DNA of 64,000 bases, taken from NCBI RefSeq assembly GCF_014696065.1, contig NZ_JACJPL010000022.1, forward strand, positions 1 through 64,000, given 5' to 3'. This stretch comes from Leptolyngbya sp. FACHB-261. GTDB taxonomy: Bacteria > Cyanobacteriota > Cyanobacteriia > FACHB-261. The position numbers and the translations under genes are program-made. The notes beneath the pieces were generated by a model. The model was not told the origin of the DNA. It made no database searches and saw only the letters and a program-made list of their open reading frames with translations. This document shows, one piece after another, positions 18,673 through 44,591 of the stretch; position 1 is the stretch's first letter; each line of letters begins with the position of its first letter.

Positions 18673-18724
18673 GGACGAGGCTTTTTATCTGCCATAAGAT
18701 TTAGGCGCTCGCAGCAATTTACTT

Positions 18725-26600: not shown

Positions 26601-27005
26601 GCACAACTGCGAGAGCTGCGGCTGCTATTAGATCGGGCAGGCTACTCAGAGCAGGCGTTACGGTCGGCCTGGCAAGACGTGACGAATCAGGACATTGCCG
26701 CGTCGATCATTGGCTTCATTCGGCAGGCCGCGCTGGGAGATGCGCTGGTGCCTTATGAAGAACGAGTGGATCGGGCTCTCAAGAAAATTCTGACGAGTCG
26801 GGCTTGGACCCCACCGCAAAGGCAGTGGTTGGAGCGCATTGGCAAACAGCTCAAGGTGGAAACCATTGTGGACCGGGAGGCCTTAGATCAGGGCATGTTC
26901 AAAGTTCAGGGGGGTGGCTTTGAGCGGCTGAACCGAACTTTCGAGGGCAAGTTGGAGGAAATTCTGGTAGAGATTAATGATGCGCTTTGGCAGAGTGCAA
27001 GTTAG
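23655..27005 (+). CDS. hsdR: Type I restriction enzyme R subunit
   Basis: HsdR is the ATP-driven translocase and nuclease of type I restriction. I chose ATG 23655, with AAAGGA upstream, over a TTG 39 bases earlier. The product is about 1116 residues. The N-terminus is a DUF4145-like helical domain (about 1-135), then a long coiled coil (about 155-240). The PD-(D/E)XK nuclease follows (ADYALF...VVEAKRR; E297, K299), then SF2 motor motifs: Walker A ATGTGKT (K440), DECH (D541-H544), LTATPA, and motif VI QMLGRATRLC. It heads an hsdR-hsdM-(Rpn)-hsdS cluster, with hsdM 15 bases downstream. All key motifs are present, so it looks functional. Confidence 0.95.
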   Translation: MIASQNFAFLQVHDTQLVRLGTLAEQYFVTDPNTCLIKLRQFSELLAQLVAARVGLYLEGENQVDLLRRLRDEGLLNRDAGQLFYELRVTGNKATHALSGDHRSALSCLKYARELGIWFHKSFSKERNFKPGPFIPPPDPRSETQALKQELERLRAEAQVARTMAEAAQASALEEAQLREVAEELLIEAEAKAQEVQAHLVEIQAQATREAPQAIQQVIRQAQQAETEIVLDEAETRRLIDRKLQAAGWEADSEQLTFANGIRPQKGKNLAIAEWPTQGGRADYALFVGLEAVAVVEAKRRSKDVSADIDQAKRYSRTFQILGNETLSGGPWREFKVPFVFATNGREYLKQLRTKSGIWFCDLRRPENLRYPLNGWYTPKGLLDLLAQDVDQAQAKLAQEDFNYDLKLREYQIKAIQATESALAEGRRELLLAMATGTGKTKTCIALVYRLLKTKRFRRVLFLVDRTALGEQTDNAFKESRMESLQSFSDIFDVKGLKDATPEAATRVQISTVQAFVKRILYASDERAVPPVDQYDCIVIDECHRGYLLDRELSDTELSFRDADDYISKYRRVLEHFDAVKIGLTATPALHTTEIFGPPIYQYSYREAVIDGHLIDHEPPFRIETKLSQEGIVWKQGDSIAKFDPKTGKLDLANAPDEVKLEVEQFNRRVITQEFNRVVCEALASYLDPALPEKTLVFCVDDNHADLVVDQLKTALANQYGSVEDDAVLKITGKADQPLQLIRRFRNEQNPKIAVTVDLLTTGIDVPSICNLVFLRRVNSRILYEQMLGRATRLCPDIGKQVFRIFDAVDLYAGLEAFTNMKPVVVDPKISFAQLVEELGRVQASDALALVVDQLLVKLQRKRQSMSPEGRAELETLAGMPLDEMVSQLRQAKPDQVQQWFQGRESLAVLLDQRREANQPILVSYHVDELQSISRGYGVAGDGAYRQRPADYLDDFKRFLTQNQNEIAALLVVTQRPRELTRAQLRELRLLLDRAGYSEQALRSAWQDVTNQDIAASIIGFIRQAALGDALVPYEERVDRALKKILTSRAWTPPQRQWLERIGKQLKVETIVDREALDQGMFKVQGGGFERLNRTFEGKLEEILVEINDALWQSAS

Positions 27006-27020
27006 CCGACAAAACACCTT

Positions 27021-28442
27021 ATGAATGCGACTTCTGATATTGTCCAAAAGCTCTGGAACCTGTGCCATGTCTTGCGGGATGAGGGCATCAGCTATCTGCA
27101 ATATGTCACGGAGCTAACCTATCTGCTGTTTCTGAAGATGATGGCAGAGACCGGGGGCGAGAGTCAGCTGCCTGAGGGATACCGCTGGGGTGATTTGGTG
27201 GTGCGCGAGGGGATTGAGCAGCTCACATTCTATCGGTCGCTACTGTTGGACTTAGGGCTGCACAGTTCACCTCAAGTGAAGGCGATTTTTGCCAATGCAC
27301 AGACAGCCCTGAAGCAGCCCAAGATTTTGCAAAAGCTTGTGAAGTCGATTGATGGACTGGACTGGTACTCAGCGAAAGCGGAGGGGCTTGGCGATCTGTA
27401 CGAAGGGCTGCTGGAGAAGAACGCTAGCGAGAAGAAGTCAGGGGCTGGGCAGTATTTCACGCCGCGTCCGCTGATTGATTCGATGGTTGCACTGATGAAA
27501 CCGCAAGCAGGGGAGCACATTCAAGACCCTGCAGCAGGCACAGGTGGTTTTCTGATTGCGGCAGACCGCTACATCAAGGAGCGCACGGATAACTTATTTA
27601 ATTTGCCAGAGGCGGAGCAGAACTTTCAGCGACGGGATGCATTCTACGGCATGGAGTTGGTGCAAGATGCGCACCGATTGTTGCTGATGAACATGATGCT
27701 GCATGCGATTGAGGGAAATGTGCAGCTGGGGGATACCCTTTCGGGGGATGGTCAACGTTTGGCGAAGGCAGATTTGATTCTGACCAACCCCCCCTTTGGC
27801 ACGAAGAAGGGTGGGGGGCTACCGTCACGGGACGACTTCACCTACGCGACTTCCAACAAGCAGTTGGCGTTTTTGCAGCACATTTATAGAGGTTTGAAAG
27901 TGGAGGGACGGGCAGCGGTGGTGCTGCCGGACAATGTGCTGTTTGAGGATGGGCAGGGTCGTCAGATTCGATCTGACCTGATGGGCAAATGCAACCTGCA
28001 TACAATTCTGCGGTTGCCTACGGGAATTTTCTACGCACAGGGTGTGAAGACCAATGTGCTGTTTTTCCAACGGGGCAATACCGATAAGGGCAATACTGAG
28101 GCGGTTTGGATTTATGACATGCGCACCAACATGCCCTCGTTTGGCAAGCGCACCCCACTGAGCCGTGTTCATTTCAAGAACTTCGAGGCGGCCTATGGCG
28201 ATGACCCCAATGGTGGTAGCCTGCGGGTTGATGAGGGTGAGAATGGGCGCTTCCGCCGTTTCTCACGAGAGCAAATCACCAAGCGAGGCGAAAACCTTGA
28301 CATTTCCTGGCTGAGGGATGAGAGCTTGCATTCGGGCGATGACCTGCCCGAACCTGATGAAATCGCTGCTGAGATCATGCTGAGGCTGCGAGCGGCGATG
28401 GAGGAAATGGAGGCGCTGTCTGAATTGCTGGAGGCGGAATAG
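27021..28442 (+). CDS. hsdM: Type I restriction-modification methyltransferase M subunit
   Basis: HsdM is the adenine-N6 methyltransferase subunit. The 473-residue protein has the N-terminal helical HsdM domain, the AdoMet-binding loop DPAAGTGGFL (from D169) and the catalytic NPPF (N256-F259). It starts 15 bases after hsdR and ends 17 bases before an Rpn-type nuclease gene. The C-terminal helix (EIMLRLRAAMEEMEALSEL) would pack against HsdS. No disruption is visible. Confidence 0.95.
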   Translation: MNATSDIVQKLWNLCHVLRDEGISYLQYVTELTYLLFLKMMAETGGESQLPEGYRWGDLVVREGIEQLTFYRSLLLDLGLHSSPQVKAIFANAQTALKQPKILQKLVKSIDGLDWYSAKAEGLGDLYEGLLEKNASEKKSGAGQYFTPRPLIDSMVALMKPQAGEHIQDPAAGTGGFLIAADRYIKERTDNLFNLPEAEQNFQRRDAFYGMELVQDAHRLLLMNMMLHAIEGNVQLGDTLSGDGQRLAKADLILTNPPFGTKKGGGLPSRDDFTYATSNKQLAFLQHIYRGLKVEGRAAVVLPDNVLFEDGQGRQIRSDLMGKCNLHTILRLPTGIFYAQGVKTNVLFFQRGNTDKGNTEAVWIYDMRTNMPSFGKRTPLSRVHFKNFEAAYGDDPNGGSLRVDEGENGRFRRFSREQITKRGENLDISWLRDESLHSGDDLPEPDEIAAEIMLRLRAAMEEMEALSELLEAE

Positions 28443-28459
28443 GGGGATAGGTTGAGCCC

Positions 28460-29392
28460 ATGACCGATCATGACCGTTTGTTCAAGGAACTCCTATCCAC
28501 TTTTTTCTGGGAATTCGTTGAACTGTTTTTGCCTGAAGTTTTTGCTTATGTGGAGCGAGACTCAATCACATTTCTACCTCAAGAAATCTTTACAGATATA
28601 ACGTCTGGAGAGCGGCGAGAAGTCGATCTATTAGCGCAGGTTCGCTTCAGGGCACAAGACGCTTATTTTCTAATCCATTTGGAAAACCAGGCGCAGTCTA
28701 GAGCTGAGTTTGCTCAGAGAATGTTTTACTATTTTGCGCGGCTACATGAGAAATATGCACTGCCCGTTTATCCAGTTGTGATTTTCGCCTTTGATGAACC
28801 TTTCCGGCCTGAGCCAAGCAGTTATCAAGTTGAGTTTCCAGATCGTAAAGTTCTGGAGTTTAACTTTGCTTCAGTTCAGCTGAACCGTTTGAACTGGCGA
28901 GACTTTCTTGAGCAGCGCAATCCAGTAGCGGCAGCTTTGATGGCCAAAATGAGGATCGAGCCTAGGGACCGGCCCAGGGTCAAGTTAGAATGCTTGCGAC
29001 TGCTGGCAACATTGCGACTTGATCCTGCCCGGACGCAGCTAATTTCTGGGTTTGTGGATACCTACCTGCGGCTGAATGAGGTGGAGGAAAGGGCGTTCCA
29101 GGCTGAGCTTGATAAGATAGTTCCAACTGAGCGGGAGCAGGTTATGGAGATTGTCACCAGTTGGATGGAGCAAGGCATTCAACAGGGCATTCAGCAGGGA
29201 ATTCAACAGGGCATTCAGCGGGAAGTCACTCTGGTATTGCGTCTGCTCAATCGTCGTTTCGGAAATCTAAATACAACTCTAGAGGAGCAGGTTCGCGGCT
29301 TATCTGTTGATCAGCTGGAGAATTTAGCAGAAGCCGTGTTTGATTTTTCCACTGAAGCAGATCTGATTAATTGGTTCAATCAAATTGAATGA
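28460..29392 (+). CDS. Rpn/PDDEXK-family nuclease (DUF4351-like tail)
   Basis: A 310-residue protein of the Rpn family of recombination-promoting nucleases common in cyanobacteria. It starts with the typical HDRLFKELLSTFFWEFVELF segment. The nuclease core carries REVDLL and a following IHLENQAQ, equivalent to D...(E/Q)xQ of the PD-(D/E)XK fold. Residues about 235-250 are a GIQQ repeat (four units), and the tail (LVLRLLNRRFGNL...LEEQVRGLSVDQLENLAEAV) is DUF4351-like. It sits 17 bases after hsdM and interrupts the usual hsdM-hsdS order. Either it hitched a ride in the operon or it works with it. Confidence 0.88.
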   Translation: MTDHDRLFKELLSTFFWEFVELFLPEVFAYVERDSITFLPQEIFTDITSGERREVDLLAQVRFRAQDAYFLIHLENQAQSRAEFAQRMFYYFARLHEKYALPVYPVVIFAFDEPFRPEPSSYQVEFPDRKVLEFNFASVQLNRLNWRDFLEQRNPVAAALMAKMRIEPRDRPRVKLECLRLLATLRLDPARTQLISGFVDTYLRLNEVEERAFQAELDKIVPTEREQVMEIVTSWMEQGIQQGIQQGIQQGIQREVTLVLRLLNRRFGNLNTTLEEQVRGLSVDQLENLAEAVFDFSTEADLINWFNQIE

Positions 29393-29668
29393 TAAGAATA
29401 AACAATAGTTGTTTGCAGAAAAACAGAGGAACATATTAAAAATAGCGCTACTTTAGTCTAGCTAACGACCCTCAAAAAAATTGTCTATGTCCATTGTTCT
29501 CAAGCTGATGCATAAATCCAGAAGTCATTAACGGCAATCCGGTGTCACCTAGTTTTCCACTGAATTTAGGCAGAATTTAGTGAAAGGATAGAAAAGTTAA
29601 AATAGGGAGCCGTACAAAAGAACCTAGACTCATTGATGAAATCGATCAAAATATAGGGAGAAAGCGGT

Positions 29669-31246
29669 ATGACACTAGTAGTAGGTGATAAGCTTCCCAA
29701 AGAACCCGTACAGTCGGATGCCTTACCTTTAGGTTGGCGCTGGGGAGCGTTTGATGAGTTAACTGTTAATTTTGATGGCCAAAGAGTGCCTGTGAGTAAT
29801 TCCGATAGGAAATTGATACAAGGAGCTTTTCCTTACTACGGTGCTTCTGGTATAATCGACTATGTTAACGAGTATATTTTCGATGGAAAATATCTATTGA
29901 TTGCAGAAGACGGGGCAAACCTTCTTAGTCGTTCAACGCCGATTGCATTTGAAGCTGACGGAAGATTTTGGGTAAACAACCACGCTCATGTAGTGCAAGT
30001 TCCCGGGTGTTTGATTCCGCTTTCATATTTGCGTCACTACATTAATTCAATAGACCTGAGAGTCTATATTTCTGGCTCAGCACAACCTAAGCTAAACCAG
30101 AAAAATTTGAATCGTATTCAGGTTCCTCTTCCACCCCTCAACGAACAACGCCGCATCGTCGTCAAAATCGAAGCCCTCACAGCCCGAAGCCAGCGGGCAA
30201 AAGAGGCACTCGACGCTATCCCACCCCTACTAGAGCGATTCCGTCAATCGGTCCTTGCTGCTGCTTTTCGTGGCGACCTGACGGCTGATTGGAGGGAGGA
30301 GAATCCGGATGTTGAACCGGCATCAGTTTTGCTGGAGCGCATTAGAGCTAAACGTCGCCATCAATGGGAGGTCAACCTCTCCGCCAGAGGTAGAGATCCT
30401 TCTAGGGCAAGGTGTGAGGAAGTAGAGATCCCGGATGCTAATGACTTTCCTGAACTTCCGAAAAACTGGATATGGACAACTCTAGAGCAACTTGTCTCCT
30501 CTCTTCGTAACGGTTTATCGAAGAAGCCAGCAGATAAACCACCTGGCATTCCAATTCTTCGCATCTCGTCCGTTCGATCAATGGAAGTTGACACAAATGA
30601 TATACGCTTCTATCGGGTAGAAAGACCTGATGAATTAACCCCATATTTCCTAAGAGCAGGGGATTTGCTTTTTACGCGATATAACGGTAGCCAAGAATTT
30701 GTTGGCGTTTGTGGCTTAGTACCAGCGCTAGACTATGATTTGATTTATCCTGACAAGCTTATACGAGCTCAGCTTGTTAAAGAATTAATTGTCCCCAAAT
30801 ATCTTGAGCTTGTGTGTAATGTTGGGATTTCGCGCTCACACATTGAAAGGCATGTGAAAACCTCCGCAGGGCAGCACGGTATTGCTGGTTCTGACATCAA
30901 AACCACACCAATTCCATTGCCTCCTCTTAAGGAACAGATTGAAATTGTAAATCTTGTTATCGAAAGATTTTCAGCAATAAGCAACCTCCAAATATATTCA
31001 GAAGACTGTCTTAACAAAGTTTCACTTCTCAATCAATCTATCCTAGCCAAAGCCTTTCGAGGTGAACTGGTTCCCCAGGATCCCAACGATGAACCTGCAT
31101 CCGTTCTACTAGAGCGCATCCGTACCGAGCGCGAGGCAATGGCTACCAAGCCCAAACGTGGCCGGAGTGTAAAAGAGCGCAAGGGTTCTACCAAAACCAA
31201 AATTGACCCTAAGCAGCAAACTATTGCCTTTGATAAGGATGATTAG
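29669..31246 (+). CDS. hsdS: Type I restriction specificity S subunit
   Basis: HsdS reads the two half-sites of the recognition sequence. The 525-residue protein has two target-recognition domains (from about 20, LPLGWRWGAFDEL, and from about 265, LPKNWIWTTLEQLV), each followed by a conserved helical spacer (PPLNEQRRIVVKIEALTARS; PPLKEQIEIVNLVIERFSAI) and a repeated AFRGDL/AFRGEL...EPASVLLERIR segment. The tail is basic (PKRGRSVKERKGSTKTKI). It starts 276 bases after the Rpn gene, after AGGGAG, so it probably has its own promoter. The duplicated plan is intact. Confidence 0.93.
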   Translation: MTLVVGDKLPKEPVQSDALPLGWRWGAFDELTVNFDGQRVPVSNSDRKLIQGAFPYYGASGIIDYVNEYIFDGKYLLIAEDGANLLSRSTPIAFEADGRFWVNNHAHVVQVPGCLIPLSYLRHYINSIDLRVYISGSAQPKLNQKNLNRIQVPLPPLNEQRRIVVKIEALTARSQRAKEALDAIPPLLERFRQSVLAAAFRGDLTADWREENPDVEPASVLLERIRAKRRHQWEVNLSARGRDPSRARCEEVEIPDANDFPELPKNWIWTTLEQLVSSLRNGLSKKPADKPPGIPILRISSVRSMEVDTNDIRFYRVERPDELTPYFLRAGDLLFTRYNGSQEFVGVCGLVPALDYDLIYPDKLIRAQLVKELIVPKYLELVCNVGISRSHIERHVKTSAGQHGIAGSDIKTTPIPLPPLKEQIEIVNLVIERFSAISNLQIYSEDCLNKVSLLNQSILAKAFRGELVPQDPNDEPASVLLERIRTEREAMATKPKRGRSVKERKGSTKTKIDPKQQTIAFDKDD

Positions 31247-31332
31247 ATTCTTCGCTTTTAACCTGTTACTTTACACGTTTCAGCTCAGGCAGAAACAGCC
31301 ATCGCCTATCAAAACGCCCTTCGAGCAGATTC

Positions 31333-31970
31333 ATGAGTGAATCAGAGAAACTGCGAAATCTAGTTACGCAAATCACTCAGACTGAGAAGCGAGAAGAGTT
31401 CTTTCGCCTTGCCAGCGAACTGAAACCCGTTGATGAACTTCTGCTGCTGATGAAGCAGCAAACCGACTCACTGATAGCCAATGCGAGACTCTGCAACAAC
31501 TTCTGATTTGGATAAGCCGTAAGGCAAGTGCAATCCCATTTCCCTACCAACCCTTCGCAGTCCGTGCCTTTTATCTAGCCCTCATCCGGGTCCTTGGCCC
31601 TGCTTTCGTCCGTGCCTTCAATGAACCCGTTCTCTACCGCGCTCGATCTCGCCAATTTGCCCTCAACCTGGACCGCGCCCAAGCCATCGTTCAAGACTCG
31701 AGCGAGCCTCTCATCCTTCAACTAACTACAGGCGACAACCCAACCGAAATTATTACCCGCATCTTCGCCTTCAACTTTGAGCCTCAACTCAGGCAGCTTC
31801 TCCAGGAGTTTCATGCTCAGCTCCCTAATCCAGATACCCAAGCCGAACAATTTGACGACTGGCGAGAAGCCAACAATGGTCAAGCTTGGATTGCCGAACT
31901 GAGAACTGCCGTTGGTCACGTTAGCGCAACGCTCCTGTGTCCCGCAGCACTTGCTCCTCGAAAGGTTTGA
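31333..31970 (+). pseudogene. Frameshifted, truncated N-terminal module of a cyanobacterial multidomain protein
   Basis: From ATG 31333 the frame reads SEKLRNLVTQITQTEKREEF and so on, to ELLLLMKQQTDSLIANARL, then a stop at about 31506. One base shift near 31495 restores a long frame (LQQLLIWISRKASA; YQPFAVRAFYLALIRVLGPA; NLDRAQAIVQDSSEPLILQL; DDWREANNGQAWIAELR) ending with TGA at 31968-31970. The AVRAFYLAL segment recalls the leader of cyanobacterial pentapeptide/STAND-type proteins. The 3' end runs into the tail of the TIR gene on the other strand, so the rest of the gene is lost. Confidence 0.65.
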
Positions 31971-33978
31971 GGGCTGTAGCCGAGAAACCCTCAAAGCTCT
32001 TAATCACCAGCGCCTCATTAGTGCGAAAGCGCTGCTTCTGGGGCGTCTCAGACCCAGCAACATAAACCGCTTTTGCCAACATCGCGCTCGACCGGCCATA
32101 GCCCGCTGCCTTCTGCAACTCCCGCAGCTTCGTGCGCAACCACACCTCACTGCCCGCGCCGTAGTAGATCAGCGCCGCTTCGCAATCGCGCAAACTGTCC
32201 TGGTGGTACTGCCGCACCTCCGCCTCATCTCCCTCAAACAGCGAAGGCAGCACCTCAAACCCCTGGTCCCAGAGATAGCTCTCCAAAGGCTCAATCGCCT
32301 CCAGGTCGCGCTGGTCGCAGATCAAGTAAACCCGAGCTGGCCCTGCTTCGCTCAGCTCAGGCTCCTTAGGTATGGAGCGAGGGCTGAGCCGGTCCTGAAT
32401 CAGTTTCCTCAACTCCTCCAGGCTGGTTTGCAACACCTCAGAGTCATCCTGCAACGCCTGAAGAAATTCCGCCTGACGCGGTTCCTGCGCCTGGGCATCT
32501 GATGGCATCCAGACTAGGCGAGTAAAGGTCGGATCCCTACGGTCGCGTTCCAGCGCCAACTGATGCTGCAACACCACCACCGAGCGCTCCGCCCCCTCAG
32601 GCACAATGCCGTAACGCTCCCCAACCAAATGGATCGAGAGCGTACAACGCGCCAAATACTCCCGCACACTCTGCTCAAACTCCGGGCTGTAAGGGAGCGG
32701 CTGGTCGGGCAGCACCACATGGCCCTGCTGCTGTAGCTCGCGCCGGATCTTGTCGCGTTCAGAGCTAAGGTCAAAGGTCGTCTCAGCCAGGTAAATGGTT
32801 GTGCCCGTGGGTGCCGCGACTTGAGGCAAAAAGCCATTGCGCTGGCTGCTCAGCGTGTCTAGAAGCTGGTAGATGTCGTAGGCCAGATCGTCCAGCTTGG
32901 CCCAATAGTTGCGCTCAGCCTCCGGCCCAAAAATGCGGCTAAACTCTTGCACTCGGCCTGTTTGGTCAATCTGATAAAACTCGTAGCCCAGCAACGGTTG
33001 CAACTCCTCCGGGTGCTGCTCTTGGGGAATCGGCGTCTTAATCACCTTAAAGATGCGCACCTCATTGGCAACCCGCACGCCACCCGTTTGCTCAGCCGCT
33101 CGGCAAAACTCCTTCAGCTCCCTAACGCACCATTCCGAGCGAACATAGCGAGGTGAGAGCACCACAACCAGTAGCGCCACCTTGGGAAACTGCTCCACAA
33201 TCGTCAGCCCAAAGTCATCGTTGCCTTGCAGTTTCAGATCTCGCCAGATTCTAGGGCGTTCCCCGCGCAGTTGGCCTAAGCGAATCTCCAGAGCTTTGTG
33301 AAAATCCGAGATCCAGCCCTCCTGCCCCTGCGTCAGCGGCTGGTTATCAATATGGGCGTAGCTGATGAAGATGTCATTCTCAAAATTAGAGTGGCCTCGC
33401 GCTGGAAGCTTCGATGCTTTTGACACCTCTTTGGGTGGATCCTCTGCAATTTCCTCCTCATTAGCAACTACTTCCACTTGCCCTGAATCGTTTAAAGCCC
33501 CCCTATTAGTTCGGTCTGTTGCGTCAAGTTGCGTCAGGAGGCTAGTATCTTGGTTTGATATCTCCTGCTCTTCCCAGGAGATTGTGAGCTTACTCTGTAA
33601 TGAGCTGACCTGCTCCCTAACGTAAATAGTTTGTGTTTCAAGAACTGTGAGTGGTACGCCCCAACCATTGACAAGTGTGACCTTAATAAAGCCCTCCTGC
33701 ACCTCAGGTTCTGCAGTAAGTAGAAACTGCGCTGGTCCGTAGGTGCCTCCAAAGCGGTGGAGTACTACAGCTGGCTCACCTAGTACCTCATTACGGAAGA
33801 CAGGAGCAGTGTCCAATAGGCAATAGATAACAACTTCTTCATCTGCATACGGCCATTTGTCTAGGGCTGTCGCTGGACGCAGGTCAACAGTCAAGAGGTA
33901 GGTCTTCCCAATTTCAACTACCCTAGGGTAGTTGAGGATTGGTTCTACAATTAGCTCAGCAGAGACAGAATTAACCAT
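31921..33978 (-). CDS. Multi-TIR protein of the vWA/AAA+ operon
   Basis: A 685-residue protein with an N-terminal beta-rich domain (about 5-125), an acidic linker (to about 198) and three alpha/beta regions. TIR1 (about 200-330) is canonical: NDIFISYAHID, then RIWRDLKLQG, VALLVVVLSPRYVRSEWCVR and E287, the position of the catalytic Glu in TIR NADases. Region 2 (from about 391, TTIYLAETTFDL) and region 3 (from about 547, RVYLICDQRDLEAIEPL) look like divergent TIR/DUF4062-like folds. It is the last gene of a five-gene operon and its ATG overlaps the CHAT-like stop by 8 bases. TIR1 could cleave NAD or signal; regions 2 and 3 may be regulatory. Domain 1 is firm, 2 and 3 are tentative. Confidence 0.85.
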   Translation of the reverse strand: MVNSVSAELIVEPILNYPRVVEIGKTYLLTVDLRPATALDKWPYADEEVVIYCLLDTAPVFRNEVLGEPAVVLHRFGGTYGPAQFLLTAEPEVQEGFIKVTLVNGWGVPLTVLETQTIYVREQVSSLQSKLTISWEEQEISNQDTSLLTQLDATDRTNRGALNDSGQVEVVANEEEIAEDPPKEVSKASKLPARGHSNFENDIFISYAHIDNQPLTQGQEGWISDFHKALEIRLGQLRGERPRIWRDLKLQGNDDFGLTIVEQFPKVALLVVVLSPRYVRSEWCVRELKEFCRAAEQTGGVRVANEVRIFKVIKTPIPQEQHPEELQPLLGYEFYQIDQTGRVQEFSRIFGPEAERNYWAKLDDLAYDIYQLLDTLSSQRNGFLPQVAAPTGTTIYLAETTFDLSSERDKIRRELQQQGHVVLPDQPLPYSPEFEQSVREYLARCTLSIHLVGERYGIVPEGAERSVVVLQHQLALERDRRDPTFTRLVWMPSDAQAQEPRQAEFLQALQDDSEVLQTSLEELRKLIQDRLSPRSIPKEPELSEAGPARVYLICDQRDLEAIEPLESYLWDQGFEVLPSLFEGDEAEVRQYHQDSLRDCEAALIYYGAGSEVWLRTKLRELQKAAGYGRSSAMLAKAVYVAGSETPQKQRFRTNEALVIKSFEGFSATALKPFEEQVLRDTGALR

Positions 33979-35698
33979 GCTTAGCTTCTTGTGAAGGTAC
34001 AGGTTTAGCAGACGGCAAAGTCAACTTTAAATAGGCCTTGGGGTTACCGTAGTAAACATACATAAATGTGTACAAAAAATCCCTTTTTCGCCTTTCTAAA
34101 GGAACCTTTGTATTCCTAAGTCTCGAGGCTACTTCTGCACGGAGTTTGCGTAACAGCTGGGCAGGTTGCATGCCTTGAGAGGAAGTAGCTGCACTTAGCA
34201 AGAACTGGGCTAGCTGTGCTGCGAAAAGGCGACCAACTGGTCCCAACGTGCCGATATAGCTAGCCGCAACCTGGGTGAGTGCAGCTTGTGTCAATCCACA
34301 AGGCTGATGATCATGGACTAGTAAGCGTCCAGAATAAGAGGCATTTGCAAAGAAGACTGGTCTTGGATCTAAAATACCTTCAACATCATCGAATCGGAAT
34401 TTCACTGTTACATTACTAGGATTATGTAGCTTACTCAAGACATTCTGTTCATCTCCATACGTTAAGACTCCATTACAACTTAAGTACACTAATCCAACCG
34501 TAACTGCCTCCGATGAGGGAAGCAATCCATCCTGTAATTCTTCCGGAGAAGTATGATGCTTGAGCGATAAATTCTGCAAAATTGGACAATTGGACTTTGT
34601 AACTTCTGAATCAAGGGAGTGAACATAGGCAACTACTCGGCCTGTATGTTTAGCTTCTCCAAGCTGCAACGCGACTTGCTGGTTTCGGTAATAAGCCTCA
34701 GCCCAGCGAACGACAAGCACGCACGCACCTAGATATCTGCCCCCTCCGAGTTTGAACATTTCCCAAGGAATTTGAGAGTCAGCTTGGTCGATTATAACGA
34801 TGCAGCAATCCTCACCATAAGAATCAACCACCTTTTCGAGCCATACAGTTATATCTCCCACATTCTTTATCGCATAGTCATTAATAGCCTCTTGGAGCGC
34901 TTTTAAATATCCAAGGTCATCACTGTAGTTTTCCGGTGATACCTGAAGGCTTGTGATAGGCCCTAACTTGTCGGGACGGTTCACTCGATCTCGAATCCAT
35001 CCCGTTAAGGATAACTCGTTTTGGCCTTTCAGATGAATGTGTAGAAAGGCTGTGCGCTCAGGTGGTTCTGCCTTGACTGGTAAGTTGTAAACTTTTGCAG
35101 TGGGGGCCGGTGTACTGTCAATACTTTCTAGGGGGAGTACTAGAGATGACGCGAATTTGTTGAGATTCGCACTGGATTCCCTATAGCGCAACTCCAAAGT
35201 CACTGATGCTACAGAACAATTAGCCTGAACTATGAATTGGAAGTCGTGGTGCCATTCAGCCTCAGCGTGGCGTGAAAGACAACTACCTTGATCGGCAATT
35301 GTCCCAATTGCAGCAACCTCTGCAGCGCTGCCTATCACGTTTAAGGTTAACTGCAGTTCTTGTTCAATCTTCACTGGGTATTGAATTATCTGCCAGTCAC
35401 AAGCCGAGAGACTGGGGGAAGGCCTGTATATATTCCAACTGCGCGAAACTCGTATGCAATAAGCTTGCTCAGGCTGGAGCGAAGCCTGAGGTGACAACAG
35501 GACAGCTTCACCAGAATTGAGTTCTAATACCTGAAGATCAAAAAAGAATTCATGAGCTACTAGGTCTACGTTAAGGTTTTGTGCACTGTTCTGGATAGTT
35601 CCACCATCTCCAGTCGCAATGCTCATTTGTACTTGTGGAACTGGTCGCTTGGCGACTGTTGACCGTTGAGGTCCAATGGCACGTGATATAAGGTCCAC
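33971..35698 (-). CDS. CHAT-fold protein lacking the catalytic His/Cys (pseudo-protease)
   Basis: A 575-residue protein, start GTG 35698 behind a G-rich site and 2 bases after the vWA stop. Residues 1-200 are beta-rich. The C-terminal domain follows the CHAT caspase-like plan: the early strand (CCIVIIDQADSQIPWEMFKL), then LVYLSCNG where active CHATs read HxxCHG (N409 in place of His), then VFFANASYSGR where they read LNACESGR (S454 in place of Cys), then a GTLGPVGRLFAAQLAQFLL segment equivalent to the conserved helix after the active site. Spacing between the two positions (45 residues) is normal. Both catalytic residues are therefore replaced, and the domain is probably a scaffold or sensor. 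Its stop overlaps the TIR start. Confidence 0.8.
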   Translation of the reverse strand: MDLISRAIGPQRSTVAKRPVPQVQMSIATGDGGTIQNSAQNLNVDLVAHEFFFDLQVLELNSGEAVLLSPQASLQPEQAYCIRVSRSWNIYRPSPSLSACDWQIIQYPVKIEQELQLTLNVIGSAAEVAAIGTIADQGSCLSRHAEAEWHHDFQFIVQANCSVASVTLELRYRESSANLNKFASSLVLPLESIDSTPAPTAKVYNLPVKAEPPERTAFLHIHLKGQNELSLTGWIRDRVNRPDKLGPITSLQVSPENYSDDLGYLKALQEAINDYAIKNVGDITVWLEKVVDSYGEDCCIVIIDQADSQIPWEMFKLGGGRYLGACVLVVRWAEAYYRNQQVALQLGEAKHTGRVVAYVHSLDSEVTKSNCPILQNLSLKHHTSPEELQDGLLPSSEAVTVGLVYLSCNGVLTYGDEQNVLSKLHNPSNVTVKFRFDDVEGILDPRPVFFANASYSGRLLVHDHQPCGLTQAALTQVAASYIGTLGPVGRLFAAQLAQFLLSAATSSQGMQPAQLLRKLRAEVASRLRNTKVPLERRKRDFLYTFMYVYYGNPKAYLKLTLPSAKPVPSQEAKHG

Positions 35699-35700
35699 AG

Positions 35701-37563
35701 CTAGCTCCCCCCCAGTTTTAGGAGAGCAGCGTTCTGGATTATCGCACCCATAGTCTCTGCCAACATGATGGGTAAGTCGGTGTGCTGTTGGGGTTGCGGA
35801 TTTAGGAAAAAGCTCTCCATATTGTTTAGGGCTCTCAGCTGACGGGCTATCTTGAGAGCGTCATTGATACCTTCACGAGAGACAGGGTGCGTAATTATCC
35901 CAGCATGGCTAGCCTCTAAAGGCACGTTTCCACGGCCATCACTAATGACAACAAGCCGTGCCTGCTGCAGCCTATTTCTGCCATGCTGAAGTGCAGTACG
36001 CAAGGTGCGTATTGCTAAGTCCAGGCCATGTGCTAGCGGAGTGGCAGTACCACCTTTTTCTCTTAAAGCAGCATTAATGCGTGGCGACAACAGGTTACGC
36101 GCTGTGATTTGCTCAGCGCGTAACCTCTCCTTTGCTCCTGCTGCTCCTACTTGAATAATAGACACGCTAGCGCGAACAATATAGGACCAGCTGAGGTGCG
36201 GTAGTAATGCCTCCTGCCAATCGCAGTCGTGCAGGCAAGTATAGTCTATAACCAGAACTAACATTTGCATGGGTATAGGGGCGCGTAGATAGCTACGCAA
36301 GTCTGCACGAGATATTTGAAAAGTACATGGATCACTTATGTAAGCGGAGCGGACCTTCTGAAATTTAGCTGCCTCCAATATCGTGCTAACTAGGGCAATA
36401 TCATGAAGGCTTGTAGCACGCTTGGTGCCTATAGCTGGCCCTTCGATTGCTCTTATGGCATGGTAACGATTAGGTGGTAATTGAAGGGGATCAATCTCCC
36501 GAGATACTAGGGCTGTATCCTCCGGGTAAGGGTCAGCAGGGACAGGGCTCGTCGGGAAAACCTCTTCAGTATCCGCCGAGAATACCTGCTCTTCTAAAGC
36601 AGAATCCACAGGCTCGGATGAGCCTGTGGAGGAGCTGACCTCTGAAAGTTGGTTGTTCTTCTTTGCCTTCTGTGGCTTTTTCGCAGAGGCCTCTTTTTTG
36701 GGAACTACTACTTGAGATATACCTGATCGAAGTCCGATAAGGTCAGCTGCTTCATCAACATGTGCAGTGGATACTACTTGATCTCGACTCAAGCATGCTA
36801 GCGCTCGGCTTAAGCGCGCTAGAGCAAGTTCTCGACGTGTAATGGAAGAGCTCGATTTGTTGAGATGGTTGAGATGCGAGAGAATGTAAGCCAGCGTCTC
36901 AGGTAGGAGTACAGGTAACTGCCCAGTAGCTTGGCTTAAAAGCTTGTATATGGCATCCATCTCGGGAGCCTCTAAGAGTTGGTGCCTTTGGGATTTCCCT
37001 ATAGTCCAATCGTCGATACCAAGAATAGTATTGAGTGGATGTGTGTCTGGTGCTAGTAGTCGCAGGGCAAAGCGGTCCAAAAGGTGCGGTGAAATCTCGC
37101 CTACCTCACCTCGAGCACAGCCAGCCACCCAGTAAAGATCAGGAGCCCACACAACATTCTGTCCATGCCGCTGCAAGGTGGCCACATCTGCGCCAACATG
37201 CATCACACACGCGCGTGCAGTCGGCAAGCTTATCCTCGCCAGATCTGGGATCAGGATCAGCTGCGGGCGAGCATCACCTTGAAATGGGACGAGCCGACCG
37301 GGTTTCACTCCTAGCTGGAAACCTTGCTGAAAGCCCAAGGTTCCCCACAAACTGTCCTCGGTCTCCGTAGATCCTAAGACAATAGTTCTAGGCATCTGCC
37401 CTGTTACACCTTCCAACATGGCAGCCAGCTGATCAGCAGCAGCCTGGAATAGGCTTAGGGAGTTATCAAACAATAAGATGCTACGTAATCCGGGTTCTAG
37501 TACAGAACACGCTAGTCCCTTTGCCAAAGAGTCAACTGTCGTAGAGGGACGGGCAGCCGACAT
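35701..37563 (-). CDS. ChlD-like AAA/vWA protein
   Basis: A 620-residue protein like the D subunit of Mg-chelatase-type machines. I start it at ATG 37563, with GAGGAG upstream and 13 bases after the AAA+ gene stop, not at the earlier ATG. The N-terminal third is an AAA-like domain without Walker A but with the ISPHLLDRFALRLL motif of ChlD. A charged Lys/Ser/Glu-rich linker follows (about 285-350). The C-terminal vWA domain begins at LVLVIDYTCL: the MIDAS D-x-S-x-S is altered (D440, T442, L444), while the later GGTAT and VVISDGRGN are kept. It would be the partner of the upstream ATPase, coupling ATP hydrolysis to the CHAT-like/TIR proteins. Pigment synthesis is unlikely given the neighbours. 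Confidence 0.83.
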   Translation of the reverse strand: MSAARPSTTVDSLAKGLACSVLEPGLRSILLFDNSLSLFQAAADQLAAMLEGVTGQMPRTIVLGSTETEDSLWGTLGFQQGFQLGVKPGRLVPFQGDARPQLILIPDLARISLPTARACVMHVGADVATLQRHGQNVVWAPDLYWVAGCARGEVGEISPHLLDRFALRLLAPDTHPLNTILGIDDWTIGKSQRHQLLEAPEMDAIYKLLSQATGQLPVLLPETLAYILSHLNHLNKSSSSITRRELALARLSRALACLSRDQVVSTAHVDEAADLIGLRSGISQVVVPKKEASAKKPQKAKKNNQLSEVSSSTGSSEPVDSALEEQVFSADTEEVFPTSPVPADPYPEDTALVSREIDPLQLPPNRYHAIRAIEGPAIGTKRATSLHDIALVSTILEAAKFQKVRSAYISDPCTFQISRADLRSYLRAPIPMQMLVLVIDYTCLHDCDWQEALLPHLSWSYIVRASVSIIQVGAAGAKERLRAEQITARNLLSPRINAALREKGGTATPLAHGLDLAIRTLRTALQHGRNRLQQARLVVISDGRGNVPLEASHAGIITHPVSREGINDALKIARQLRALNNMESFFLNPQPQQHTDLPIMLAETMGAIIQNAALLKLGGS

Positions 37564-37576
37564 AGACTCACTCCTC

Positions 37577-38584
37577 TCAAGAATGAGAACTTTTAGTTGT
37601 ATCAGCCATACTCTGAGGGCTGCCTTTAACAAGCTCTGCTACCAACTCTGTATCCTTGGTAGTCCAAGGTGCTCCTCCACCCTGTAGAGCACCCTGACGT
37701 CGGTGCTGGAGGGCTAATGGTGTTACCTCCACTATGTCCTCAATTGCCACTGTGTCTGCCCCCTTAAGTGCTGCTACAGCCCTTGCAGCTGTTGCCAAGG
37801 TGTAGTCACCACGATGACCCTCAACCTGAAAATTCTTGCTCACACGCACACAGCACTCAGCCATATCACGAGACAAAATAACTTTCTCGAATCGGGCTTG
37901 AGCTTGATGTAGCAACTCTCTTCGGAGCAAATCTTTCTGGCGAGCAGCCCGTAGCACCTCAAGTGGTCTCCCCTGCTGCTGATTTCTTTCTAAAGATAGA
38001 GCGGCATCATAATTCAGCAAAGTTTGTAGTATCTCTATTCGCAGGTTTTCATCTTCCTCAGCGGTTACATCAACCATTAGCCCGAAGCGATCAAGTAATT
38101 GAGGACGCAAGCCCCCTTCAGAAGGGTTCATTGTCCCTACCAAAGTAAAGCGCACCTCTTTCTTTTCATCCTTTCCCTCACGCTCCACGACTAATACACC
38201 CGTGGAAGTCACATCCAGCAGGATGTTAACAATATGGTCATCCAGCAGGTTAACCTCATCAATATAGAGCAAACCTCCATCGGCCTCCTCCAACAAACCG
38301 GGTTGTGAAACTAGCTTGCCCTGCAATAGTTGATTGATCTCCCAGCCGCCCACTACCCTATCTTCTGTCACGTTGATTGGTAAGGTCACTGGCAATCTGC
38401 CACTGATCATGGTCCCGAAGGCACGAACAACAGTAGATTTGCCTGTCCCGCGTTGCCCGCTTAGCAACACCCCACCAATTCTGGGCGCAATGAATGCTAG
38501 TTCTAGAGCCAGTTTGAGTTGCTTCTGGCCAACCATGAGCGTATAGGGCATGATTTGAATTGGCTTCAGGGGCACAGCTGTCAT
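37577..38584 (-). CDS. ChlI/MoxR-like AAA+ ATPase
   Basis: A 335-residue AAA+ ATPase starting at ATG 38584 after AGGAGAG. It has Walker A GQRGTGKS (43-50), Walker B LLYIDEVNLL, and the sensor region TMNPSEGGLRPQLLDRFGL, which is diagnostic of the Mg-chelatase I subunit/MoxR clade. The lid ends with HRGDYTLATAARAVAAL. Compared with true ChlI it is paired with a degenerate vWA subunit, a CHAT-like protein and a TIR protein, so it probably drives a conflict or signalling complex and not Mg insertion. The motif set is complete, so it should hydrolyse ATP. The start of the next gene is 13 bases downstream. Confidence 0.88.
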   Translation of the reverse strand: MTAVPLKPIQIMPYTLMVGQKQLKLALELAFIAPRIGGVLLSGQRGTGKSTVVRAFGTMISGRLPVTLPINVTEDRVVGGWEINQLLQGKLVSQPGLLEEADGGLLYIDEVNLLDDHIVNILLDVTSTGVLVVEREGKDEKKEVRFTLVGTMNPSEGGLRPQLLDRFGLMVDVTAEEDENLRIEILQTLLNYDAALSLERNQQQGRPLEVLRAARQKDLLRRELLHQAQARFEKVILSRDMAECCVRVSKNFQVEGHRGDYTLATAARAVAALKGADTVAIEDIVEVTPLALQHRRQGALQGGGAPWTTKDTELVAELVKGSPQSMADTTKSSHS

Positions 38585-38679
38585 ACCGCTCTCCTAAGGG
38601 CTCGCTACGAATTAATGCACCAACTCATAGTGTTAACCAGAGTCTAAGCCTTGTCATTACATGCAACCAATTCAGCTCA

Positions 38680-39150
38680 TCAACCCTGTGTCTGGTCTAC
38701 TCCGCTGATTACAGCACCCCTACCACCTTCTACACGTTGCTCCCCGGGTCTCGTCATTGCCTGATGAATATCCGAAATCTGAGCTTCGTCTCCGCCAATG
38801 ACAGCTTGCAATCCAGCAGATCCGCCTAGTACATAAAGGAGATCCTGCGCCAAGGCAGGATCATCTTGTAGTCTCTTTGCTAGCACCTTCGCAAAGTTCT
38901 TCTGCTGCTCGGCGTCTTCTGGATCATCCGCTACCATGGTTGCTGCTGCAGTAACCACTGGGTCATCCTTGAAACGCCCTGTAACCTTATTCCACAAGCC
39001 CTGAGCTTGCTGCCATACAGCACCTCCGCCCTTCTCAGCAATTACGTCCTCTAACTTTTTCTGAACGCTCTTACCCAGAGGCACTAGGTAAGGCATGAAA
39101 GGACTGAGGAGCGTTGCTGTCCCTTTCGCGATCAGAGCAATGTCTACCAT
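38680..39150 (-). CDS. Small helical protein heading the vWA/AAA+ operon
   Basis: A 156-residue protein, start ATG 39150 behind GAGGAAG. The N-terminus is hydrophobic and could be membrane-associated (VDIALIAKGTATLLSPFMPY). The rest is acidic-basic helical (KKLEDVIAEKGG; DPEDAEQQKNFAKVLAKRLQ; DDPALAQDLLYVL), with a Gly/Gln-rich tail. I do not recognise a named domain. As the first gene of the five-gene operon, with 95 bases to the ATPase, it may be an adaptor recruiting the complex or an effector-associated module. Two perfect hairpins lie upstream. Confidence 0.72.
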   Translation of the reverse strand: MVDIALIAKGTATLLSPFMPYLVPLGKSVQKKLEDVIAEKGGGAVWQQAQGLWNKVTGRFKDDPVVTAAATMVADDPEDAEQQKNFAKVLAKRLQDDPALAQDLLYVLGGSAGLQAVIGGDEAQISDIHQAMTRPGEQRVEGGRGAVISGVDQTQG

Positions 39151-39257
39151 CTCGAATCTTCCTCAAATCATGTGAAGAAATTACGCAGGCTACGAAGAAG
39201 GCTGTTAACAATCCCAAATACTGGTGCGGCACGATGATAAAGCTCACCCAGCAGGAG

Positions 39258-39296
39258 CCTGAATGATTCATACTGTGAAAGTATGAATCATTCAGG
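39258..39296. other. Perfect 17-bp hairpin, 5-base loop
   Basis: Arms 39258-39274 (CCTGAATGATTCATACT) and 39280-39296 are exact reverse complements around GTGAA. It lies about 110 bases upstream of the first gene of the vWA/AAA+ operon. No T tract follows on either strand. Confidence 0.85.
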
Positions 39297-39608
39297 AACA
39301 TAACGCTAGACTCTGTTTTCGACCAGTGCTCAGAGCCAGATTTTCTAGGCCAACCTTAATAAAGCAACTGTGCTTCAATTCGTTAGCAAATTCTCTAAAC
39401 GAGAAGCGCAAGGGACGATGTAGAACTTAAGTGTGACCTGGTGAAGGAGTGTACCAGATCTGAGTCATTACTATGTGTTCTCAATCACCCCGCTTAGTAA
39501 TCTGCACAAGCAAGAGGAAGACCAAAAACCTAACATCCCTACTCCTATCCTCTAAGCTTAAAGTGCTCACTTCAAGAAAAGTTGGGTTCTGCAAGAATTG
39601 AAACTCGA

Positions 39609-39654
39609 GTCAACTAGGTGTGTCACTGTCTGTTCAGTGACACACCTAGTTGAC
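39609..39654. other. Perfect 20-bp hairpin, 6-base loop
   Basis: Arms 39609-39628 and 39635-39654 are exact reverse complements around TCTGTT. A short T run (ATTTTC) follows on the plus strand, so a terminator role on plus is conceivable, though no gene ends just upstream. Confidence 0.85.
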
Positions 39655-40096
39655 ATTTTCAAGCTTTCTGTGTTTATACGAGGTAGTGCATCCTGCTTGT
39701 ATAGCTATGTAGTAGTAGACACAGAATTACCCTTCATCGGACAGTACAGCTGTTCTAGAGACTCTGCAGCTTCCTTACAACTTACAGATCGGTTAGGGAA
39801 CACCCAGCATCATATTCCCATAACCACGCATCTGTATTACCTGAAGCTTGCCAGAACGGTTGCTAATCTTGCCAGAAAGAATCCCTGATTTATAAAGACC
39901 AATAGGTCTGCTTTGCTGATGCTGTTGTCAATGTTAACGAATTTGAAGTTGGGCTAGGCTCAGTGAGGGGTGAGCTCAGACTTTCAGTACCATTTGTTGT
40001 TTTGGTTGCTCTTGCTCTAAGTACGAGCAAGGGCAGCTGAGAGCTGGAAGCTTCTTTTGTTCTTGGGCTGCCCTCTCTTGGTTTACGGCTAAGACA

Positions 40097-40408
40097 TTTT
40101 TAAGGACAAACCCAAACAGGAAACCCCAAAGCCAGATGCCTAAAGGCTTTTAGGCTTACAGCTAGAGGACTGCAAATCCTTTATCCCCCAGTTCGAATCT
40201 GGGTGCCGCCTTTTAAAAAATCTCGTCATACTCATTGCCTCAAACCCTTGGTGAACAGGGGTTTTCGCTATTTGTACATAGAGTTAGTTCGCCGCTTTGA
40301 GGCTCTCAATCAGGGACTTCAGTTTCTGATTGACACATCAAGAAATACTTAAAAAGGACAAAAAAGTCTAGGACATGCCAACTGCTTAAGTACAGTTTTA
40401 AGGACAAA
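40097..40408 (+). repeat. Dispersed (T)TTTAAGGACAAA repeats around the tRNA-Cys fragment
   Basis: Three near-identical motifs in the same orientation: TTTTTAAGGACAAA at 40097-40110, AAAAAGGACAAA at 40351-40362 and TTTTAAGGACAAA at 40396-40408. A looser copy (AGAAGGACAAAAGG) lies near 41663. Short same-strand repeats flanking an att core are typical of integrase arm-type sites, so this could be the recombinase binding array. That reading is an inference. Confidence 0.5.
40165..40210 (+). tRNA. tRNA-Cys(GCA) 3' fragment, probable att site of the island
   Basis: Bases 40165-40210 match the anticodon arm to the acceptor end of a cyanobacterial tRNA-Cys: stem GAGGA/TCCTT with loop CTGCAAA (anticodon GCA), a 5-base variable loop, T arm CCCAG-TTCGAAT-CTGGG, then TGCCGCC and a T tract. 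The 5' acceptor strand (GGCGGCA) and D arm are absent from the preceding 60 bases. It is therefore a 3' half only, as left at the far end of an element that integrated into the tRNA gene. The orientation puts the element on the left. Confidence 0.75.
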
Positions 40409-41913: not shown

Positions 41914-42819
41914 GTGCTAAAAAATATCAAGCTAGGGACTCGGTTTAACCTGATTTTGGCGCTGGTCTTCATGCTGGGAATCACCATTAGTGGTGCTGCC
42001 TTGTCTAGCGTATTGCAGCAGAGGGCACAAGCTGAAGTGACATCCCAGGCACTACTGCTCATCCAAGCTATGAACTCGGTGAGAAGCTACACCAGCAACC
42101 ACATTAAGCCACTACTGGCCCCTCAGTTAGAGCCTGAGACAACATTCACTGCGGAAACGGTGCCTGCCTACTCAGCCACTGAGGTGTTTGAGAATCTGCG
42201 TCAGAGCGAAGATTATAAGAATTTCTTCTATAAAGAAGCCACTTTGAATCCAACTAATCTGCGTGATAAAGCAGATGACTTCGAAAGCAAACTAGTTGAG
42301 CGCTTTCGAAGTGAACCTAATACCCCTGAAATTTCTGGCTTCCGAGCTTTGCCAGGTGGCCAGATGTTCTATATTGCTCGTCCGCTAGCAGTGAGTCAAA
42401 AAAGTTGTCTGCAGTGTCATTCTAAACCGGAAGTTGCTCCTAAGAGCCTCGTTGAAACCTACGGTGCTGAAAATGGTTTTGGTTGGCAACTTAATGAGAT
42501 TGTTGCTACTCAAGTTATTTCTGTACCCGCAGATGATGTATTAGCCAGTGCCAATCGCTCTTTGTCTTTGATTATGTCGATTTTGATTGGCATCTTTGCA
42601 GTTGTCATTTTGCTGATTAACCTGCTGCTTAGGCGCTCGGTCATTTGGCGGATTAGACGCATGGCAAAGGTTGCTCAAGAAGTAAGCACGGGTAAAACTA
42701 GCACTGATTTCGAACAAGACTGTGGAGATGAAATCGGTGCTTTAGGCATTGCCTTCAATCGCATGAAGTCGAGCCTAGAGATTGCCATGAGGCTTCTGAG
42801 CCAGCAGCAGGATGGCTAG
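41914..42819 (+). CDS. Membrane sensor with Tll0287-like (DUF3365) heme domain and HAMP
   Basis: A 301-residue protein, start GTG 41914 (AAGGA upstream). A first membrane segment (about 10-30) leads into a periplasmic DUF3365 domain with a single c-type heme site CLQCH near residue 166, as in the Tll0287 protein. A second membrane segment follows at about 212-236 (LSLIMSILIGIFAVVILLIN), then a cytoplasmic HAMP domain ending the protein (RIRRMAKVAQEVSTGKTSTD; DEIGALGIAFNRM). There is no kinase or cyclase output, so it must signal through a partner. The convergent Ser/Thr kinase downstream and the small modular protein upstream are candidates. Redox or gas sensing is inferred from the heme. Confidence 0.88.
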   Translation: MLKNIKLGTRFNLILALVFMLGITISGAALSSVLQQRAQAEVTSQALLLIQAMNSVRSYTSNHIKPLLAPQLEPETTFTAETVPAYSATEVFENLRQSEDYKNFFYKEATLNPTNLRDKADDFESKLVERFRSEPNTPEISGFRALPGGQMFYIARPLAVSQKSCLQCHSKPEVAPKSLVETYGAENGFGWQLNEIVATQVISVPADDVLASANRSLSLIMSILIGIFAVVILLINLLLRRSVIWRIRRMAKVAQEVSTGKTSTDFEQDCGDEIGALGIAFNRMKSSLEIAMRLLSQQQDG

Positions 42820-42870
42820 TGGTGTGAAAGCTGGTTAAGGGATGATTGAAATGTGAGTTGGGATGGTGGC

Positions 42871-44328
42871 TCAGGTCGAGAGCCGCCGTCTCAATTCGGC
42901 TGCTTTCTCAACGCTGTCAAGGTTTGCTGCCAGAATATTGACTAACTCTACCGGTGAGGTTTTTGGATTGGCCTTGATTGCTTTCTGCACCAGGAATGTG
43001 GCAATAGGACCAATAAATTCTGCTAGCTCTCGTTCACAGCGCTGCACAAATTCTGGTGGCGCCGTGGAATTGGTAGGGGCATGAGAAGCTAGCGACGGCC
43101 TGGAGGGTGCGCTGGCACCTGAAGGGGGAAACTGTGAGGCTGAAGCCGCTTGGAGCAAGGCCATAGCCCGTTGCTCAAAGGCAAATCGTTTAGGCTCTGG
43201 CAAATGTAGGGATAAGCCCTGCACAAGTTCGCTGTCGGTTGTCGCTCGGGCACAGGTGAGGCGCAGCAAGCTAGAGGCAATGGGACCGGTTAGCTCCATC
43301 AGCAATTGCTCTAGACAGGTATATTGCTGAGGCGACAGCAGCAAGCAGCTAGAAGGACCGCTTGGTGCAGAGACTGGTGTAGAAGTGGATGGCGGCTGTT
43401 TCGGTGATAAGAGTGGGGCGGTTAGCTGAAGCTGAGGCGGTAGAGGCGGCAACGGTGGTGGTAGAGGAGCTGTGCGCGACTGGGTGGTTGCCTCAACGAG
43501 GGGTTGAAGGGCTTGCAGTGCCGCAGCAGCAGACGGGTAGCGCTCCTTGAAGTGGTAGCACACCAAACGCTCTAGCACACCAGCCAGTTCGGCACTGATT
43601 TTGGCCCGATGCCGCCAGATCAGCTCGCCTGTGTCGGGATCACGAGTAAACTCTCCAGGTTTGCAGCCAGTGAGCGCTTGGATTGCGATCATGCCCAGTG
43701 CGTAGAGATCACTGTTGGGGCGGGGCATTCCCTGAGCTTGCTCAACTGGCATATAGCCTGGAGTGCCAATGGCGATGGTGCCAACACTAATCTGCTCTGA
43801 GTTGTTGAGCGAGCTATTGAGCAGTTGCGTCTGAACTTGCTTGACTGCACCAAAATCAATGAGCACCAACCGCTGGTCGGGGTGGCGTCGAATAATATTG
43901 GCTGGTTTAATGTCGCGGTGGATAACGCCGTGCTGATGCACAAATTGTAAAGTGCCTAGCACATCGTAAAGCAGGTGGATGACTTGGCTCTCTGTTGTAC
44001 AAAGTCCAGCCTTGATTTCTACACCCAACGGCTGGCCTTGAATGAGCTCCTGGATGAGGTAAAACTCCTGCTCCTCCTCAAAATAAGCCAGTAGCCGGGG
44101 AATCTGATCGTGGTTGCCCAAGCGCTCTAGCGTCTCAGCTTCGCTGGTAAACAGCCGTCTAGCGGTTTGCAGAAAGACGGAATCGGTACTGGCAGGCTTG
44201 AGATGTTTGACGACACAAGCAGGGCAACCAGGACGACGCATATCCTGGGCCATGTAAGTTTGGCCGAAGCCACCTCGGCCTAGGACTTGGGTAACTTGAT
44301 AACGCCCGTCTAACAGCTTGCCTAACAT
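42871..44328 (-). CDS. Cyanobacterial Ser/Thr protein kinase
   Basis: A 485-residue kinase of the Pkn2/Hanks type. I use ATG 44328 (MLGKLLDGRYQ) over an upstream GTG, because this matches the usual kinase start. The glycine loop is LGRGGFGQTY, the Lys is in ACVVKHL, the catalytic loop is HRDIKPANII, the DFG is LIDFGAV, and GTPGYMPVEQ is the activation/APE segment. A Pro-rich linker then leads to two copies of a helical module (LEQLLMELTGPIASSLLRL and CERELAEFIGPIATFLVQKA), known as a C-terminal add-on of cyanobacterial kinases. No membrane segment is seen. All active residues are present. Confidence 0.93.
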   Translation of the reverse strand: MLGKLLDGRYQVTQVLGRGGFGQTYMAQDMRRPGCPACVVKHLKPASTDSVFLQTARRLFTSEAETLERLGNHDQIPRLLAYFEEEQEFYLIQELIQGQPLGVEIKAGLCTTESQVIHLLYDVLGTLQFVHQHGVIHRDIKPANIIRRHPDQRLVLIDFGAVKQVQTQLLNSSLNNSEQISVGTIAIGTPGYMPVEQAQGMPRPNSDLYALGMIAIQALTGCKPGEFTRDPDTGELIWRHRAKISAELAGVLERLVCYHFKERYPSAAAALQALQPLVEATTQSRTAPLPPPLPPLPPQLQLTAPLLSPKQPPSTSTPVSAPSGPSSCLLLSPQQYTCLEQLLMELTGPIASSLLRLTCARATTDSELVQGLSLHLPEPKRFAFEQRAMALLQAASASQFPPSGASAPSRPSLASHAPTNSTAPPEFVQRCERELAEFIGPIATFLVQKAIKANPKTSPVELVNILAANLDSVEKAAELRRRLST

Positions 44329-44591
44329 CGGTTCAGTTTGCCCAAGTCCTTTACCAGTAGATAACGTCAGGATCACAGTAATATTCTCCCAATCACCAGG
44401 GTAAATCTGATGCCTTTAGAGAAACTTTAAATAAACGAGAACTTAGTTCTTCAGAAGCTTGATATAAACCCGAAATGTTGCAACTGCTGTTGCCCTTTAT
44501 ATAGATGAAAATAGGTAGGGCATATGCAGAACAAGGTGCGTCAGAAAGCACTGCTTAAAGCACAGCTCATAGCAAGACCCAAAGCTGGTTT

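Follow-up and report, generated by a model that had tools for sequence, protein, structure and literature searches.

A tRNA-Cys 3′ fragment as the probable right attachment site of a defence-rich genomic island in Leptolyngbya sp. FACHB-261

Why should a piece of a tRNA gene lie, without its 5′ half, between a stretch of defence-like genes and the other genes of a cyanobacterial genome? This question was raised by the window considered here, i.e. a stretch of 64,000 nucleotides corresponding to bases 1–64000 of contig C22 in the 6.95 Mb genome of Leptolyngbya sp. FACHB-261 (36 contigs). Its preliminary description, made from the letters alone, reported a 46-base segment of tRNA-Cys(GCA) and interpreted it as the right end of an integrated island. 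Our analysis supports this interpretation and locates the far end of the same island at an intact tRNA-Cys on another contig (C36). The fragment is very probably the attR of a ~ 70 kb tRNA-Cys genomic island, inserted by an integrase in the anticodon stem-loop.

Located on the forward strand (40164–40212), the segment proved to be an exact copy of 49 bases of the 3′ part of tRNA-Cys(GCA), and thus slightly longer than reported, and the lack of the tRNA 5′ half was confirmed. It starts at AGAGGACTGC, at the end of the D arm and the anticodon stem, and stops just beyond the acceptor 3′ strand; ARAGORN detected no intact tRNA in the window. Genome-wide, this 49-base core occurs twice, in the window fragment and in the intact tRNA-Cys(GCA) at C36:95878-95949, the sole intact one of the genome, and a control with the reversed pattern gave 0 matches. 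An exact match of 49 bases is not a chance event. No third tRNA-Cys piece was found in the genome with up to 1 mismatch allowed per 20 bases. The features that delimit the island in the window, together with the first genes beyond it, are as follows:

1..111 (+): end of an IS630-like element interrupting cas3, the other end being at C36:125294-125404
1..40163 (no strand): right 40.2 kb of the probable island, delimited from contig adjacency and GC content; the left 29.5 kb correspond to C36 95902-125404, outside the window
112..2392 (−): 5′ part of cas3 (cas3_core, E=1.5e-49 on 116-2392), the 3′ part being on C36
40164..40212 (+): putative attR, right end of the island, exact repeat of C36:95902-95950 within the intact tRNA-Cys
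41914..44376 (+ and −): nearest genes recognised beyond the right end of the island, coding for Tll0287-like (+) and protein kinase (−) proteins, from Pfam

A perfect inverted repeat with 20-base arms and a 6-base loop is also present within the island at 39609–39654, ~ 500 bases from its right end.

The preliminary description had predicted that an intact tRNA-Cys would be found elsewhere with a tyrosine recombinase beside it, and such a gene was indeed located on C36, 164 bp downstream of the tRNA-Cys and on the same strand. This 386-aa ORF (C36:96114-97274) matches a PHROG integrase family (E=5e-10); it has no match in Pfam and NCBIfam, and a PDB sequence search gave 0 matches. All 32 integrases aligned share residues R231, K253, R316, H339 and Y348, which we take, by their familiar pattern, to be the tyrosine-recombinase active site. 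A small ORF (C36:97237-97521), convergent to the integrase gene and with relatives near the integrases of three other genomes (G162, G169, G179), is a candidate excisionase given its position and size. After this first pair come a second, truncated integrase gene (47% identity over 109 aa) and another copy of the small ORF, and deeper in the island lies a recombinase-like ORF of 650 aa; the truncated integrase and the recombinase-like ORF suggest a composite history.

The two contigs are connected through an interrupted gene. Contig C36 extends 29.5 kb beyond the tRNA and stops 111 bases into an IS630-like element (a family name that we assume), and the window opens with the last 111 bases of an element of this kind; the IS ends on both contigs carry inverted repeats with 22 of 28 bases alike, with TA at both ends. 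The element splits cas3, leaving the 3′ part at the end of C36 and the 5′ part in the window, and the two halves join in frame once the IS and one copy of the TA are removed. One cas3 split by one IS across the end of C36 and the start of the window implies that the contigs are adjacent, and therefore that the island has its other end at the intact tRNA-Cys on C36. Both ends thereby appear to lie on one replicon, and the unassembled middle of the IS may contain other DNA. With 29,503 bases on C36, 40,212 bases in the window and this unassembled middle, the island reaches ~ 70 kb. Its GC content (48.0% on C36 and 47.7% in the window) contrasts with that of the flanks (52.8% on the left, 51.8–55.1% on the right), with a step at both ends. 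The switch from defence-like to other genes previously noticed at the fragment is borne out by the Pfam content and coincides with the rise in GC from 47.7% to 51.8%. The intact tRNA-Cys of this genome was not found apart from an island, nor was the fragment encountered at this place in strains lacking the island. Relatives of the Tll0287-like and protein kinase genes of the right flank are also close together in Aliterella.

The cargo between these ends is mostly defence-like, including CRISPR-Cas, type I restriction-modification and others. The CRISPR-Cas system is of type I-MYXAN, with a cas4-cas1 fusion, cas2, cas5, cas7, cas8, the split cas3 and cas6, and is accompanied on the C36 part of the island by an array of 75 repeats (L005:7381-12649), whose 74 spacers had no match in the comparison loci examined. 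In the window, the remaining cargo genes recognised are:

2308..2967 (−): cas6 of type I-MYXAN (PF09559, E=1.7e-59; cas6_cmx6, E=7.7e-65)
10146..15115 (+): adjacent genes for Tubulin_2-like and periplasmic-binding-like proteins (Pfam, E=1.3e-95 and 1.7e-27)
18725..21295 (−): helicase-HNH nuclease protein, defence-like (ResIII, Helicase_C, HNH; PADLOC PbeA, E=4e-20)
23616..31246 (+): type I restriction-modification, with hsdR, hsdM, a DUF4351 protein and hsdS (Pfam)
31921..39150 (−): TIR/DUF4062, AAA and MoxR-like operon, defence-like (Pfam, NCBIfam)

The ORF at 22295–23596, directly before hsdR, has a weak match to JukB (E=8.4e-8). The operon at 31921–39150, which associates TIR/DUF4062, chelatase-like AAA and MoxR-like genes with genes without family, may represent a defence system not described so far. 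Among the island ORFs scanned with Pfam, which comprise part of the short ORFs and stop at the unassembled IS middle, no relaxase or conjugation gene, as expected of an integrative and conjugative element, was detected; the Pfam scans of island ORFs likewise revealed no Tn7-type transposition genes.

The position of the crossover can be approached from the extent of the repeats. As in this genome, the repeat starts at the anticodon stem in 7 of 8 relatives, the last one (G179) starting further upstream, in the D arm; in two genomes (G324 and G389), differences between the copies reappear 3′ of the anticodon arm. Taken together, these starts and renewed differences place the strand exchange in or next to the anticodon stem-loop. 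This position corresponds to the anticodon-centred subsite of Islander, listed for 2083 of its 3919 islands (PMC4383910). We propose that a circular element would have held, in its attP, a copy of the tRNA-Cys 3′ part, and that the tyrosine recombinase of the island would have joined this attP with the chromosomal tRNA-Cys through strand exchange within the anticodon stem-loop. The 5′ half from the chromosome and the 3′ half of the element would then restore the tRNA, giving the attL on C36, and the displaced chromosomal 3′ part would stay at the other end as the attR, at position 40164 of the window. Excision would be the reverse reaction, probably helped by the small convergent gene beside the integrase. 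We infer from sequence that this integrase made this insertion and may still be active, and that the small gene may act in excision.

Comparable arrangements were observed in other cyanobacteria. A second tRNA-Cys 3′ piece is present in all eight Cys-linked relatives examined (G162, G179, G169, G324, G249, G133, G302 and G389, the last being Aliterella), and the two copies, where on one contig, are spaced by 10.1, 14.3, 18.3, 19.0 and 28.1 kb. Of 21 intact tRNA-Cys loci without a downstream integrase match, among which G320 and G287 are interrupted by a contig end within ~ 1.4 kb, 19 have no further copy in their genome at the mismatch limits applied; a second match with 2 mismatches occurs in G268 and G307, and BLAST recovered a further diverged one in G196 and G210. 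These 21 loci exclude G352b, G196b, G210b, G269 (no core), five fragment-only loci and the second copy of G179, which is near-complete and also called as a tRNA by ARAGORN. In Aliterella, a paired change in the T stem distinguishes the two tRNA-Cys copies, which suggests that the 3′ half of the tRNA came with the element itself.

An empty site was identified by comparing G133, occupied by a 19.0 kb element, with its sister species G209, which has one intact tRNA-Cys and no integrase. Upstream, the two are 95.1% identical over 2.3 kb, and the DNA following the G133 fragment corresponds, from the first base, to the DNA following the G209 tRNA (93.1% over 6.5 kb). For the present genome, no empty site was found among the 59 genomes searched, which, apart from itself, are no nearer than the same class. 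The right-flank gene Tll0287 was followed in nine genomes, which showed no tRNA in the flanks of this gene and no match to a strict tRNA-Cys pattern (0/9), a looser pattern giving copies in seven of the nine (one each in six, two in G389), and flank proteins in four further stretches gave no useful synteny. The right flank of G249, followed in 26 genomes of its genus, does not adjoin tRNA-Cys in the sister species, and the flank of G169, used as an empty-site test in 8 genomes, provided no clean case. Other loci depart from the common layout: G256 has a fragment for which no intact partner was found, G332 carries at the tRNA-Cys of its contig C4 a tandem of two integrase elements separated by 11 kb and associated with two tRNA pieces, and has one extra fragment besides, and G083 encodes a close relative of the integrase with its tRNA-Cys located elsewhere. 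These exceptions (G249, G256, G332, G083) may come from draft or rearranged genomes, but show that not every case is simple.

Candidate circular forms were also recovered. In G302, an element lies on contig C7 between the intact tRNA-Cys and a fragment, and contig C5 (18,288 bp) reproduces its 18,287 bp in a form closed at the core; the two sequences coincide from the core up to the point where C5 itself breaks, with a one-base register slip there. On the simplest reading, C5 would be a free circle bearing the attP, but it may also be a tandem copy or a duplicate made in assembly. This 18.3 kb element encodes a VapE-like helicase-primase and phage-tail-like proteins. For the island described here, no circular form with attP was found in the genome assembly, where the core copies are two. 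Two small circular records filed as plasmids, NZ_CP016485.1 (Picosynechococcus PCC 8807 ‘plasmid unnamed2’) and NZ_CP046059.1 (Microcystis NIES-298), encode related integrases (38–39% identical). In the former, the integrase gene is immediately preceded by the 3′ half of a tRNA-Met, as expected of an attP or an excised island, and in the latter no tRNA piece was found in the 450 bases upstream of this gene. As judged by these genomic comparisons, relatives of the integrase show what the mechanism predicts, namely a shared architecture, an empty site and a putative circular form.

At a broader scale, relatives of the integrase (E ≤ 1e-10) were detected in 293 of the 388 genomes of the class, this genome itself and remote homologues, perhaps housekeeping ones, being counted. 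The matches listed comprise 30 loci, one being the genome's own, and 29 relative loci were compared. An intact tRNA lies directly upstream, on the same strand, in 20 of them (Glu 6, Cys 5, Thr 4, Met 3, Leu 1, Lys 1) and on the other side in 2, and the 7 others have no tRNA, two of these being within ~ 230 bases of a contig end. In a tree of 32 integrases (the 30 listed loci plus G302 and G133, added because they are Cys-linked), eight Cys-linked integrases, this one included, split off together with one unlinked row (branch support 100/98). The tRNA label changes 11 times over seven labels against a mean of 19.6 for shuffled labels (0 of 200 as low), a difference to which close copies contribute. 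Among phages, the integrase matched three records of one cyanophage (25.6% over half of the query), and no relative was found in viral contigs. No published description of this family was found in the literature, covered as listings, abstracts and passages, which is no proof of absence. On balance, we lean towards a widespread cyanobacterial integrase family that enters varied tRNA genes (Cys, Glu, Thr, Met and others) via the anticodon arm, with a target that follows the integrase clade and a very different cargo from case to case, as in defence islands of 70 kb and VapE-primase phage-tail elements of 18 kb, the free circles of which are sometimes filed as plasmids.

Not all of the 70 kb need have arrived at once. 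The attL and attR could bracket at least two elements, accreted at tRNA-Cys or nested, the left-end integrase having brought only part of the island. The truncated second integrase with its own small convergent gene after the first pair, the 650-aa recombinase-like ORF and the IS630-like element are consistent with such a composite, as are the smaller elements of the relatives (10–28 kb) and the tandem pair of G332, whereas no third tRNA-Cys piece (up to 1 mismatch in 20 bases) is present here. We regard this history as quite conceivable, if not favoured, and it may well refine the interpretation of a tRNA-Cys island without excluding it.

The two other explanations weighed were both rejected. 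Some cyanobacterial CRISPR-associated transposons (CASTs) insert near tRNA genes, and the island carries a type I system, as might be expected had a Tn7-like transposon set it beside the tRNA; this is most improbable, since the Pfam scans of island ORFs revealed no Tn7-type proteins, the Cas set includes cas1, cas2 and cas3, the repeat consists of 49 bases of tRNA instead of a short target duplication, and a tyrosine recombinase stands at the tRNA. A stray tRNA pseudogene or a split-tRNA exon with no tie to the island would, as a lone fragment, look alike, but the presence of an intact, unsplit tRNA-Cys with an adjoining integrase, the joining of the contigs through cas3, the composition boundary at the same place and the recurrence of the tRNA-fragment pairing in 8/8 relatives examined leave this hardly any plausibility.

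The tRNA-Cys island is thus of an ordinary and well-known kind, the anticodon-type tRNA island, with its ends mapped precisely and an integrase family unnamed by Pfam and NCBIfam. It shares with the anticodon-centred (‘A’) islands of Islander (PMC4383910) a regenerated tRNA, a displaced 3′ fragment, a tyrosine integrase and an anticodon-centred repeat, and differs in nothing in kind, the particularities here being an integrase without Pfam or NCBIfam match and a mainly defence-like cargo. The Prochlorococcus tycheposons, as related second-hand in PMC10872708, are likewise cyanobacterial and tRNA-sited, with a tyrosine recombinase at the tRNA end and a large variable cargo, a likeness of layout; unlike the island, their cargo is described there as nutrient-related. 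The G302 element has the same integrase family (41%), tRNA-Cys target and att arrangement, but VapE-like helicase-primase and tail-like genes instead of defence genes. Similarly, the two plasmid-filed circles share the integrase family at the identities given above, but measure 13–17 kb and carry a DUF3987 or VapE-domain gene, with no annotated defence cargo.

These observations suggest that excised islands are to be found among the small circular records of cyanobacteria filed as plasmids. The att sites and the integrase family make tRNA specificity testable, or could be used for site-specific insertion in cyanobacteria. For Leptolyngbya sp. FACHB-261 itself, with both ends fixed to the base, the island shows how one cyanobacterium came by many of its defence genes together, in one integrated block.
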